Of a DNA stretch of 19,739 bases, positions 11,742-15,609 are shown one piece after another. The DNA comes from Rhodospirillaceae bacterium CCH5-H10 (GTDB lineage: Bacteria > Pseudomonadota > Alphaproteobacteria > Reyranellales > Reyranellaceae), in contig LSKJ01000681.1 in the NCBI GenBank assembly GCA_001557035.1, positions 1 to 19,739 of the forward strand. Direction: 5' to 3'. The translations under genes were made by a program, and so were the position numbers. The notes below the pieces were generated by a model that was given only the letters and a program-made list of their open reading frames with translations, was not told the origin of the DNA and did not search any database. How positions within the stretch are numbered: the stretch's first letter is position 1; each line of letters opens with the position of its first letter.

Positions 11742-12785
11742 GTGAAGATCGAAGCACGCCAGGTCGAAGCCTTCCTGAAGAAGCCGGATCCCAAGATCCG
11801 GGGCGTGGTGATCTACGGCAACGATGACGGGCTCGTGGCCGAACGCGCCGTGGCGCTGGCCCGAACGATCTGCGAGGACCTCAAGGATCCGTTCCGCGTC
11901 GTCGACATCACCGGCGATTCGCTGAAGCAGGATCCTGCACGCCTGGCCGACGAGTTCGGCGCCCTGTCGATGATGGGCGGTCGTCGCGTGATCCGCGTGC
12001 GACCGGCAGGCGAGGAGTCGGTCGCGGCGCTTGAGAATCTCGTCGAAGCGGTTGCGGGCGATGCTTTGATCGTTGTCGAAGCAGGCAACCTGACGCCGCG
12101 GTCCGGCCTGCGCACGCTGGCCGAGACGGAGGCCAGTCTGGCGGCCCTGCCTTGCTACATGGACAACGAGGCCGCGCTCGAAGGCCTGGTCGAGAGTTCC
12201 GCGCGCGCCCAGGGGCTGACGGTGGAGCCCGACGCACTGGAGTGGATCGTGGAGCGCCTGGGCGGCGATCGCGGCCAGACGCGCGGCGAGATCGACAAGC
12301 TGCTGCTCTACAAGGGCAGCGATAGCGGCAAGTCCATCACGCTCGAAGACGGGATGGCCATCCTTGGCGACACCGCGTCGATCGGAATCGACGACGTGAT
12401 TGCCGCGACCTTCGACGGCGACCTGATCGGACTGGACCGCGCGCTCGACCGGGTCTTCGCCGAGGGCGGCAATCCGATCCAGCTGGTGCGCGCACTGCAG
12501 CGGCACGCCGATCAACTGCATCTCGTGTCAGGCCACATGTCGAAGGGCGGCAACCTCGAAGGGGCGATGTTCAAGGCGAGGGGGCTGCCGCGCGGCGGAC
12601 CGGTCCGCCAGCGTTTCGAACGCCATGTGCGCGGCTGGCCGCTCGCACGCCTGAGTTCCGCCCTGACTGCGATTCTCGACGCCGAGATCGAGTGCAAGCG
12701 AACGGGCCTGCCCGACGAGGCGATTGCCCGCCGGCTGTGTCTGCGCCTCAGCCAGGCGGCGCGATCGGCAAAGGCACGACGCTAG
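11742..12785 (+). CDS. holA: DNA polymerase III delta subunit
   Basis: HolA is the clamp-loader subunit that opens the beta sliding clamp. The 347-residue protein shows the family's start (KIEARQVEAFL..., GVVIYGNDDGLVAERA at about residues 21-36), DITGDSLKQDPARLADEFGALSMMGGRRVIRV at about 62-93, and the C-terminal FAEGGNPIQLVRALQRHADQL segment. As expected for delta, it has no intact Walker A motif. The GTG start at 11742 is the only sensible one; no clear Shine-Dalgarno sequence precedes it. Its stop codon shares bases with the stop of the convergent encapsulin gene (CTAG), leaving no space for a terminator between them. Confidence 0.92.
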   Translation: MKIEARQVEAFLKKPDPKIRGVVIYGNDDGLVAERAVALARTICEDLKDPFRVVDITGDSLKQDPARLADEFGALSMMGGRRVIRVRPAGEESVAALENLVEAVAGDALIVVEAGNLTPRSGLRTLAETEASLAALPCYMDNEAALEGLVESSARAQGLTVEPDALEWIVERLGGDRGQTRGEIDKLLLYKGSDSGKSITLEDGMAILGDTASIGIDDVIAATFDGDLIGLDRALDRVFAEGGNPIQLVRALQRHADQLHLVSGHMSKGGNLEGAMFKARGLPRGGPVRQRFERHVRGWPLARLSSALTAILDAEIECKRTGLPDEAIARRLCLRLSQAARSAKARR

Positions 12786-13609
12786 CCCGGTTGCTTGCCA
12801 CTGCCGGCGGTGAGGGGAATGGCAGCCTGCGGCGACAGCACCAGGAAGGTGAAGCTCTCCTCGATGTAGAGCCGTACCCGCTCGGCATCGTGGTCGAGAT
12901 AGCCGATCGAGAAGTCCTGACCGACCGTCAGTTCGAAGTCACCGCCGCGGAGCGAGATCACCAGACCGCCATCGAGGCCCGGGGCGGCGTACACGTCACC
13001 GTCGATCAGGCGCTGGACATGGCTCAGGATCGGATAGCCGCCGTCGGTGCGCGCCTGGAGATCCTTGTAGAGCTGCTCGCTCAGCACCACGGCGAAGGGA
13101 CCCTCGACACCCTCGTCGCGCATCTTTTTCAGCGCAGCGGCGACGGCATCGGGATAGTCGGCGTGGCTGGTCCCCAGCGCGACCGACTGACCCTTCTGGG
13201 CTTCGCAGATGCCCGTGATCTGCGCGGCCTTGTAGCCGTGGAAGATGGCGCGATCCTCGGCGATGGCGATTTCGCGCGCCGCGGCCGTCACCGAATCGAG
13301 ATCGGGATCGCGCGCGCCGCGATCGATCGCGTCGAGTTCGCCGCGACTCACCTCGAAGGGAATACGCAGTTCGACCAGTGGCTGGATGCGCCGCAGCAGG
13401 GCGCGAACGTTCTTGCCGCCCGGCGGCGAAGCGATGGGATCGGCACGACCGAGCTCGACGTCGGACGCGCCCCAGCCGAGAGGTCCCTTGAAGTCGACGA
13501 CGCGCCGCGCCGCCAGCAAGGCACGCAACGTGCGCTTGGCCTCGGTCTCGATTTCTTCCCAGCCGGCCTGGGTGATGGGCGCACGATCGCGGAAAAGATG
13601 GTTCTTCAT
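12782..13609 (-). CDS. enc: Family 1 encapsulin shell protein (HK97 fold, linocin M18 family)
   Basis: The 275-residue protein matches family 1 encapsulins from end to end: N-terminal LFRDRAPITQAGWEEIETEAKRTL, RRVVDFKGPLGW at about 36-47, RIPFEVSRGELDAIDRGARDPDLD at about 81-104, AEDRAIFHGY at about 117-126, DGGYPILSHVQRL, and the C-terminal GGDFELTVGQDFSIGYLDHDAERVRLYIEES with SFTFLVLSPQAAIPL. Such proteins assemble into a roughly 24 nm, 60-subunit icosahedral cage that encloses cargo bearing a short C-terminal peptide. Its ATG overlaps the stop of the ferritin-like cargo gene (ATGA), so cargo and shell are translationally coupled. A short Gly/Ser/Lys/Pro tail follows the usual end. Confidence 0.96.
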   Translation of the reverse strand: MKNHLFRDRAPITQAGWEEIETEAKRTLRALLAARRVVDFKGPLGWGASDVELGRADPIASPPGGKNVRALLRRIQPLVELRIPFEVSRGELDAIDRGARDPDLDSVTAAAREIAIAEDRAIFHGYKAAQITGICEAQKGQSVALGTSHADYPDAVAAALKKMRDEGVEGPFAVVLSEQLYKDLQARTDGGYPILSHVQRLIDGDVYAAPGLDGGLVISLRGGDFELTVGQDFSIGYLDHDAERVRLYIEESFTFLVLSPQAAIPLTAGSGKQPG

Positions 13610-13995
13610 TTCTTGCTCACTTTACGCAGGCTGCCGATCCCGAGGCTGCCGTCCGACGCTTCGGCGCCTTCGGCCTCCTCACCACCTTCCTTGCCCATCA
13701 TGGTGGCCTCGATCTGGGTGACCGGGCCTTCCTTGAAGAGGAAGGTGCGGAGATGCTCGTCCATCTTGGGATCGTTGCGACGCAGCCATTCGAGCGTCAT
13801 CGCGGCATGCTCTTTTTCCTCGTCACGATTGTGTTCGAGGATGGAGCGCAGTTCCGCGTTCGACGTGGCCTTGGCGCGCTGGTCGTACCAGTCGACGGCC
13901 TCGAGTTCTTCCATGATGGAAACGATCGCGCGATGGCGATCGATTACCTCCGGACCGAGCTTGTCCGGGTCTTCGTGCAGCGTGTCACTAGCCAT
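13606..13995 (-). CDS. encFtn: Encapsulated ferritin-like protein (EncFtn) with encapsulin targeting peptide
   Basis: The ATG at 13995 gives 129 residues closely resembling the Rhodospirillum rubrum encapsulated ferritin. The iron-binding residues of that family are all present with the same spacing: E29, E30, E32 and W36 (in MEELEAVDWYDQR) and E60 and H63 (in NRDEEKEHAAMTLEWLRRND). The two-helix protein forms annular decamers that oxidise Fe(II) inside the shell. After an acidic linker (about 102-114) the C-terminus ends DGSLGIGSLRK (115-125) plus VSKK, the classical encapsulin cargo-loading peptide. The frame stays open upstream to 14397, but ATG 13995 gives the family's N-terminal length. 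No Shine-Dalgarno sequence precedes it, which fits the promoter described separately. The gene precedes and overlaps the shell gene. Confidence 0.96.
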   Translation of the reverse strand: MASDTLHEDPDKLGPEVIDRHRAIVSIMEELEAVDWYDQRAKATSNAELRSILEHNRDEEKEHAAMTLEWLRRNDPKMDEHLRTFLFKEGPVTQIEATMMGKEGGEEAEGAEASDGSLGIGSLRKVSKK

Positions 13996-13999
13996 GTAC

Positions 14000-14014
14000 G
14001 GCCAAACGTTGGCC
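14000..14014. repeat. Inverted repeat at the encFtn promoter -10 region
   Basis: GGCCAA (14000-14005) and TTGGCC (14009-14014) form an inverted repeat around ACG, overlapping the -10 element of the predicted promoter and ending four bases before the cargo start codon. It may be an operator or a coincidence of GC-rich sequence. Confidence 0.55.
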
Positions 14015-14029
14015 AGCCGAGAAAGTTCC
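14005..14029 (-). promoter_or_regulatory. Predicted EcfG (general stress sigma) promoter of the encapsulin operon
   Basis: On the minus strand GGAAC (14029-14025), 16 bases, and CGTT (14008-14005) match the alphaproteobacterial EcfG consensus GGAAC-N16-17-CGTT exactly. With transcription starting a few bases after the -10 element, the RNA would begin within about 0-5 bases of the cargo ATG (13995). The sequence is seen directly; sigma factor identity and leaderless transcription are inferred. Confidence 0.6.
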
Positions 14030-14115
14030 CGCACGGGGGAATGCTTCCGTCCTCGCAGCGCAACGTGCCGACGGCCGAGTGCGTTGCATCCGCCGAACCT
14101 TCGAGGGAGGTGCGG

Positions 14116-14592
14116 GTGCGCACGCTGGGAATCTTGCTGACGGCCTCTTTGCTCCTCGCGGGCTGCGCCACGGTGCCGATGGCCGGGGCGGGCGCCGACG
14201 CGGAAGGCAAGCGGTTCGATCCGCCGCCGCCGGGCCGGTCTGCCCTCTATGTCTATCGAAGCTCGATGCTGGGAACGGAGTCGATCTTCAACATCGCCGA
14301 CAACCAGCAGCCGGTCGGCGCGCTGGCGGACAAGACATGGATCCGCGTGGACGTCGCGCCGGGCCCGCATGTCATTGCCTGCAGCATTCCGAGCCACGCG
14401 CCGATGACCCAGGACCCGGCACAGACCGCCACGGTCACTCTCGCGCCGGGAGAAACGCGCTTCGTCGAGGCCGTGATCTGGCCCGGCCTTCCACTCAACC
14501 CGCGCTGTCGCACGACCGAGGTTGCCGCCGATCAGGGGAGGGCGGCGGTCGCCGCCGGCACTCGCGCGATGGGCGCGGGCTGGTCGAACTGA
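14116..14592 (+). CDS. DUF2846-like lipoprotein, divergent from the encapsulin operon
   Basis: A GTG at 14116 preceded by AGGGAGG (14104-14110, five-base gap) gives 158 residues. The start MRTLGILLTASLLLAGC is a model lipoprotein signal with Cys at 17. The mature part resembles DUF2846: RSALYVYRSSMLGTESIFNIADNQQPVGAL, KTWIRVDVAPGPHVIAC, and LAPGETRFVEAVI, i.e. a beta-sandwich-like envelope protein of unknown function. A GTG at 14110 is the alternative start. The frame is open upstream to 13753 but that overlaps encFtn on the other strand. The gene converges on parB with nine bases between the stops. No direct functional link to the encapsulin system is visible beyond the shared upstream region. 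Confidence 0.82.
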   Translation: MRTLGILLTASLLLAGCATVPMAGAGADAEGKRFDPPPPGRSALYVYRSSMLGTESIFNIADNQQPVGALADKTWIRVDVAPGPHVIACSIPSHAPMTQDPAQTATVTLAPGETRFVEAVIWPGLPLNPRCRTTEVAADQGRAAVAAGTRAMGAGWSN

Positions 14593-14601
14593 CCGGACGC
14601 G

Positions 14602-15609
14602 CTAACGCCGCGTGAGCTTGTCGACCACCGTGTCGAGTTGATCGAAGTCGCGGATCTCCAGGGTCAGCACGCTCTGCTCGCCGAGACCGCGCAGCGTGAG
14701 ATCGACCTTGAGGCCCAGCGCCTCCTCCAGTCGCTTCTCCAGCGCGCGCGTGTCGGCCGTCTTGGGTGACCCGCCGGCGGCTCCCGGCTTACCCTTGCCG
14801 GAACCGCCGCCACCCTTGGCTTTTCTCTTGGTATCGCCCGCAAGTCTTTCGAGATCCCGCACCGTCAGCTTCTCGGCGACGGCCTGTTTGGCCATGGCCA
14901 ACGGATCGGGCACGCCGATCAGGGCACGTCCCAGACCGGCGGTGAGCTGGCCGTCGCGCACCATCTCCTGGACCGCCGGCGGCAGATCGAGCAGGCGGAT
15001 CGTGTTGGCGACATGCGGGCGGCTGCGGCCCATCATCCGCGCGATGTCTTCCTGGGTGTGCTTGTAGTCGTCGATCAGGCGCTTGTAGCCCTGCGCCTCG
15101 TCGATGGCGGTGAGGTCGGAGCGCTGCAGGTTTTCGACCAGGCCGATCTGCAGGGCATCCAGATCGTCGATCGTGCGGATGACGACCGGCACGTCGTGGA
15201 GCTGGGCCTTCTGCGCCGCCCGCCAGCGTCGTTCGCCGGCGATGATTTCATAGGAGTCGGCCGCATCGCGCAGCGGGCGCACAAGGATGGGTTGTAGAAG
15301 TCCATATTCCTTGACCGACTCGACCAGCGCCTCGATGCCCTCGAAGCTGGTGCGCGGCTGCATCTTGCCGGGCTTGAGCTGGCCGATCGGCAGGGTGATC
15401 GGCGTGCGGTTGGCGGCGGCCCGGGCTGGCTCGCCGTCGGTCGCTGCGGCCGGCGCCGCGACCGCTGGCGCCGAGACCGCAGACGCCGAAGACGGCAGGG
15501 TCGGCGGCGGAGCGGGCGCGGCCGGCGTGACGGCGGAGGCGACTTCGTCATCGCCCAGCAGCGCAGACAGGCCGCGGCCGAGACCGCGCGGTTTCGGGGG
15601 CTGGCTCAT
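14602..15609 (-). CDS. parB: Chromosome partitioning protein ParB (CTPase, parS binding)
   Basis: ParB loads onto parS and spreads as a CTP-dependent clamp. The 335-residue protein has the N-terminal ParA-stimulating motif GLGRGLSALLGDD (9-21), a Pro/Ala-rich linker (about 28-68), and the CTP-binding domain with GERRWRA (125-131) and ENLQR (159-163). The helix-turn-helix region follows (TQEDIARMMGRSRPHVANTIRLL, 184-207) and, after a Gly/Lys-rich linker, a C-terminal dimerisation domain (about 284-335). The usual SAGHARAL motif reads TAGLGRAL (223-230), without the histidine. ATG 15609 overlaps the parA stop (ATGA). The frame is open further upstream within parA but that is not coding here. 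Confidence 0.96.
   Translation of the reverse strand: MSQPPKPRGLGRGLSALLGDDEVASAVTPAAPAPPPTLPSSASAVSAPAVAAPAAATDGEPARAAANRTPITLPIGQLKPGKMQPRTSFEGIEALVESVKEYGLLQPILVRPLRDAADSYEIIAGERRWRAAQKAQLHDVPVVIRTIDDLDALQIGLVENLQRSDLTAIDEAQGYKRLIDDYKHTQEDIARMMGRSRPHVANTIRLLDLPPAVQEMVRDGQLTAGLGRALIGVPDPLAMAKQAVAEKLTVRDLERLAGDTKRKAKGGGGSGKGKPGAAGGSPKTADTRALEKRLEEALGLKVDLTLRGLGEQSVLTLEIRDFDQLDTVVDKLTRR

Follow-up and report, generated by a model that had tools for sequence, protein, structure and literature searches.

The encapsulated-ferritin operon in the window, that is, the whole 19,739-nt stretch of DNA analysed here, is preceded by a promoter motif of the EcfG type that lies so close to its first gene that transcription is predicted to begin at the start codon. 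We judge it probable (about 0.8), from comparison of sequences, that the site is a working EcfG/ECF15-type promoter giving a leaderless encFtn-encapsulin mRNA under stress; the motif is exactly as first described, and comparison gives the interpretation good support. If this is true, iron storage in a nanocompartment is tied to the master stress switch of the Alphaproteobacteria, a connection not found in the literature searched.

The probable promoter site and the divergent gene

The operon lies on the minus strand and consists of encFtn (13606..13995), which encodes an encapsulated ferritin-like cargo of 129 aa (PF22277, 5.8e-39; TIGR04535, 147.8 bits against a cut-off of 125), and the gene for a family 1 encapsulin shell protein of 275 aa (12782..13609; PF04454, 3.5e-90; NF041155, 317.6 bits against a cut-off of 100). 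Because cargo and shell genes are adjacent and both score above curated cut-offs, the pair is classed as an EncFtn-encapsulin operon. The ATG of the shell gene overlaps the TGA of encFtn in the sequence ATGA (13609-13606, minus strand), and the closest related loci carry titles such as Reyranella and Rhodospirillaceae. Upstream, the encFtn frame runs on without a stop through its promoter as far as a GTG at 14397 (13606-14397, minus strand), so automatic annotation may set the start too far upstream. A wrong choice of the encFtn start codon was rejected, as the same ATG bears a Shine-Dalgarno sequence in the leadered orthologues (judged by eye).

On the minus strand, positions 14029-14005 read GGAAC TTTCTCGGCTGGCCAA CGTT, with the -35 element at 14029-14025, the -10 element at 14008-14005 and the encFtn ATG following after nine bases, at 13995; the original prediction had this site right in both sequence and coordinates. 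All nine bases agree with the consensus of the general stress response (GSR), GGAAC-N16-CGTT, as given in passages of PMC7083833, PMC3892343 and PMC4287350. The first G of GGAAC stands 34 nt before the A of the ATG, and in Caulobacter one SigT motif is placed 'at -34' of one mapped transcription start site (TSS), where the -10 element is TGCT; this reference spacing comes from one passage of PMC4287350. The predicted transcription start is thus the A of the ATG as +1 (13995), with C at -1 (13996), also on the minus strand, and the predicted leader is 0 nt long, give or take about 1 nt. GGAAC-N15-18-CGTT occurs a single time in the window. With a random expectation of 0.65 matches there, and at least one match in 96 of 200 shuffles, the window alone would not prove the site; its position and its conservation do. 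A palindrome over the -10 element, GGCCAA-ACG-TTGGCC, was considered as an operator and rejected, since on visual inspection the sister sequences do not preserve it.

A second EcfG-type promoter, GCAAC-N17-CGTT at 14060..14085 of the plus strand, points away from the operon and ends 30 nt before the GTG of a small lipoprotein gene (14116..14592, plus strand; 158 aa) that has the Shine-Dalgarno sequence gagggagg. The claim that no other match lies near a gene start therefore stands for GGAAC and fails for GCAAC, a -35 box that a passage of PMC7083833 counts among the two commonest in GSR promoters of Sphingopyxis. The product was called a lipoprotein by eye from its signal sequence, and its match to DUF2846 (PF11008) reaches 20.6 bits, below the cut-off of 34.3. 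Among the 45 sequences searched, the gene is found in 14 loci from 12 different genomes (two same-genome pairs), and all 14 carry G[GC]AAC-N16/17-CGTT 30-35 nt before the GTG, 8 in the strict form and 6 with GCAAC. The region between encFtn and the lipoprotein gene thus appears to hold a divergent promoter pair, beyond the single promoter originally predicted.

Conservation and architecture within and beyond the genus

A search of 65 genomes of the genus found encFtn in 48 of them, at 51 places; after a locus at a contig edge that has no upstream region (L168) and a fragment (G066:C26) were left out, 50 upstream regions were compared, namely the window and 49 genus loci. Of the 50, 43 have a strict GGAAC-N16/17-CGTT no more than 120 nt from encFtn, and with at most one mismatch the site is present in 49, which answers the prospect that orthologous promoters might lack the motif. 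Dinucleotide shuffles gave a mean of 0.1 (maximum 1) for the strict site and of 2.46 (maximum 7) with up to one mismatch; at the leaderless position the strict site occurs in 20 of 50 upstreams against 0.005 (maximum 1) in shuffles, a figure that is not a probability because the compared loci are related. The sole upstream that has no motif belongs to a second encFtn copy of 55% identity (L170, G044:C56).

In 22 of the 50 loci (20 of them strict) the -10 element ends 9 nt (16 loci) or 8 nt (6 loci) before the ATG, with the first base of the -35 element at -34 in 16 loci and at -33 in 6; in the remaining 27 loci with a site, the best match ends 35-78 nt before the ATG. Reyranella aquatilis (L002) has the leaderless form, and R. 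soli (L014) is among the leadered relatives, whose predicted leaders measure roughly 35-45 nt. Apart from GCAAC in L151 and L158, none of the nine motif bases varies among the 22 leaderless loci, while the commonest base of a column reaches 32-55% in the 25 bases 5' of the motif and 32-77% in the spacer. All 22 have C at -1, which fits transcription starting on the A of the ATG at a pyrimidine-purine step. It is also evident that the two groups differ in their Shine-Dalgarno sequences: the longest run of consecutive AAGGAGGT bases before the ATG is 0-3 in the 22 leaderless loci (within -20..-4); of the 27 leadered loci, 26 have runs of 4-6 and one has a run of 3. These results, a spacing that would place +1 at the A of the AUG and an absent Shine-Dalgarno sequence, are those expected of a leaderless mRNA. 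They bear out the lack of a Shine-Dalgarno sequence at encFtn that had been remarked on, and they show the placement of an RNA start near the ATG to be conserved in 22 of 50 loci; the exact 5' end is still a prediction.

In a tree of encFtn plus shell sequences (45 of 48 rows, L035, L163 and L166 having no shell match and being left out; quick method), 18 leaderless rows form one clade with SH-aLRT 98, and two more (L018 and L135) fall in the sister clade among leadered rows. The deeper branches are leadered and three changes suffice, although several deep forks are weak. We read this as loss of the leader in the ancestry of the window's encFtn. Between the -10 element and the Shine-Dalgarno sequence, leadered orthologues conserve an element around CGGYCGGACTA..G (alignment of L010, L011, L016, L017, L019, L020, L022-L031, L033 and L172). 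An RNA structure in the leaders of the leadered clade was rejected, since the single-strand folds of six leaders did not surpass those of shuffles (z -0.84 to 0.84); the element may thus be a DNA operator.

Outside the genus the picture is different. An encFtn match was found in 64 of 385 genomes of the class, and a strict site lies within 200 nt in 8 of 59 non-genus encFtn upstreams, with 0 at the leaderless position; the 59 were taken irrespective of a shell gene and include two misplaced upstreams that are effectively unread (L227 and L250). With 8 of 59, a class-wide rule was rejected, and EcfG-type control of encFtn, as judged from the motif, is near-universal in the genus and patchy elsewhere. 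Furthermore, five gammaproteobacterial encFtn loci (L034, L045, L057, L061 and L064; four Steroidobacter and one Lysobacteraceae MAG) have by eye GGAAC-N16-CGTA upstream, which suggests ECF control of encFtn there too.

General stress response genes and competing explanations

The PhyR-NepR-EcfG partner switch controls the general stress response, and its genes were observed in relatives of the window's genome. The nearest genome compared, G001, shares 22% of the window's words and has NepR, two ECF sigma genes, PhyR and an HWE/HisKA_2 kinase clustered, its PhyR having both PhyR sigma-like domains and the receiver. The order at G001:C1:3412437-3417127 (L089, L173) is sigma-sigma-nepR, with phyR and the HWE-type kinase divergent. 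NepR was matched at E<=0.001 in 17 of 25 genus genomes, the other 8 giving no match to a profile 35 positions long. PhyR_sigma2 was matched in 6 of the 6 genus genomes given, as were ECF sigma genes, and PhyR_sigma-like in 20 of 20 (19 above cut-off), a profile that also catches ECF sigma factors. Moreover, 6 of the 6 genomes have a strict site that lies upstream of phyR and is directed at it; in G001 the distance to the phyR frame is about 500 nt. The whole G001 genome has 76 strict sites, compared with 60 matches to the reversed pattern, so modest an excess that many single matches must be chance; among the 30 of 76 sites read, some precede a divergent pair of trehalose-phosphatase and CsbD genes, usual members of stress regulons, and LemA and DUF4142 genes. 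Taken with the motif in orthologues, the PhyR, NepR and phyR-side counts in these relatives support the proposed membership in an EcfG general stress regulon, and we infer that EcfG itself reads the site.

Under this reading, PhyR activated by stress would sequester NepR, and EcfG-RNA polymerase would then produce a single transcript of encFtn and the encapsulin shell gene. In the window's clade transcription would begin at, or no more than one base from, the A of the encFtn ATG, and the resulting leaderless encFtn mRNA would be translated without a Shine-Dalgarno sequence, with the shell gene probably translated by coupling through the overlap of its start codon with the encFtn stop codon. 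The second EcfG-type promoter in the same intergenic region would fire outward into the small lipoprotein gene, which would have a normal leader.

Three other explanations have to be weighed. GGAAC is common to many ECF promoters, and the site could be a real ECF promoter read by another ECF sigma factor, either the non-EcfG member of the sigma pair next to nepR or an unrelated one, so that the operon would answer a signal other than the PhyR cascade. The four or five PhyR_sigma2-matching places in each of six genomes favor this reading, as does the related motif of the gammaproteobacterial loci; it is opposed by the agreement of both elements with the GSR consensus cited above and by the presence of the same motif beside phyR and at the trehalose-phosphatase and CsbD genes, and we hold it to be unlikely. 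That the nine-base motif is a chance match could be argued from the 0.65 matches expected in the window, yet its conservation at a fixed position in diverged DNA refutes this, and we reject chance as scarcely credible.

The promoter might also be real while the main mRNA is leadered and comes from an upstream start, at a GCAAC-N17-CGTT site or a housekeeping promoter. A candidate for the former, with one mismatch, lies at 14087-14062 of the minus strand, 66 nt before the ATG, and the corresponding site is strict in L123, L125 and L126. However, the motif is near-symmetrical and this site shares bases with the conserved plus-strand promoter of the lipoprotein gene; a transcript from it would still be without a Shine-Dalgarno sequence; and no sigma-70-like site was found in 13500-14700. 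A mainly leadered mRNA in the window's clade is therefore improbable in our judgment, and a stress-activated promoter for a leaderless encFtn-encapsulin mRNA remains the preferred reading. If so, one genus has one operon in both leaderless and leadered forms, and one intergenic region joins a leaderless gene with a Shine-Dalgarno gene under the same promoter type, which together would offer a natural test of whether leaderless translation is an advantage under stress.

Candidate leaderless promoters elsewhere and comparison with known systems

To look beyond encFtn, we searched GGAACN16CGTTN8-9ATG in 20 genomes of the genus and obtained 81 matches (26 in 8 genomes and 55 in 12), of which 11 are encFtn; control spacings in the same genomes gave 24 matches at 5-6 nt and 43 at 11-12 nt. 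An ATG at the -33/-34 spacing is thus over-represented genome-wide. The pattern with an ATG 0-30 nt downstream has at least 592 matches in the 20 genomes against at least 166 for the reversed pattern, an imperfect control that uses GTA for ATG, with nested matches listed unequally on the two strands; fixed spacings were used rather than a histogram of distances. The matches read comprise 56 of the 81 (10 of them encFtn), 24 of 24 at 5-6 nt and 0 of 43 at 11-12 nt. By a base-composition rule of our own, which is not annotation, a coding-like frame begins at 29 of 46 non-encFtn matches and at 5 of the 24 with the 5-6 nt spacing (P = 0.0008, Fisher's exact test, ignoring the kinship of the genomes), and 17 of the 46 fail this test. 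Of the 29 coding-like matches, 24 have a pyrimidine at -1, which is C in 21 cases; at the control spacing 13 of 24 matches have a pyrimidine there.

Several products recur: a 35-aa membrane peptide in 5 genomes, and a 73-75-aa membrane protein, response regulators and AsmA-like proteins in 3 genomes each. A 421-aa protein is found in 4 genomes, with a less certain start because its frame is open upstream, and single cases include a transglycosylase-associated (GlsB/YeaQ type) protein, a mechanosensitive channel and an ATP-dependent DNA ligase. One or two copies of each product were scanned with Pfam. The 35-aa peptide (MLDFLGSLLWPVV...; L199, L201, L217, L219 and L303), preceded by a leaderless EcfG-type promoter, matched no Pfam family in either of its two scanned copies. 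Other recurrent matches among the 81 are unlike gene starts, for example L282, L289, L304 and L286. We tentatively propose, as a possibility somewhat short of even odds, that part of the general stress regulon in Reyranella forms a leaderless branch, with EcfG promoters fixed at -33/-34 from the AUG. Its members would be encFtn and the genes for the 35-aa membrane peptide, the 73-aa membrane protein and a single-domain response regulator, together with AsmA-like, GlsB/YeaQ-like, mechanosensitive-channel and DNA-ligase genes. If such a branch exists, one sigma factor would yield under stress a set of mRNAs translated by a separate, Shine-Dalgarno-free route, and encFtn would have joined it by leader loss.

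A literature search joining encapsulin with EcfG, PhyR, sigma factor, promoter or Reyranella returned nothing on the topic; a passage of PMC10960027 describes an RpoH-like gene beside a peroxidase encapsulin. Alphaproteobacteria are known to make leaderless transcripts: Sinorhizobium meliloti has 171 leaderless TSSs (PMC3616915), and in Bradyrhizobium 192 TSSs coincide exactly with the start codon (PMC4842269). A search for leaderless with EcfG found no paper, and one with RpoE2 found just the Sinorhizobium map, whose supplementary tables may list single RpoE2-dependent leaderless genes.

The operon itself resembles known EncFtn-family 1 encapsulin iron-storage operons in having the cargo gene followed by the shell gene, with both families above cut-off, and differs from them in the regulation described here. 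The site shares its -35 element, spacer length and -10 element with the promoters of EcfG (ECF15; RpoE2/SigT) regulons, GGAAC-N16/17-CGTT; unlike these, its target is an encapsulin operon and initiation is predicted at the start codon. With leaderless alphaproteobacterial mRNAs, the predicted encFtn transcript would have in common an AUG at the 5' end and no Shine-Dalgarno sequence. The part of PMC4842269 that deals with leaderless genes of Bradyrhizobium gives them an extended -10 motif, TGnTA, and states that specific promoters for them have not been described, whereas encFtn here has an EcfG-type promoter.
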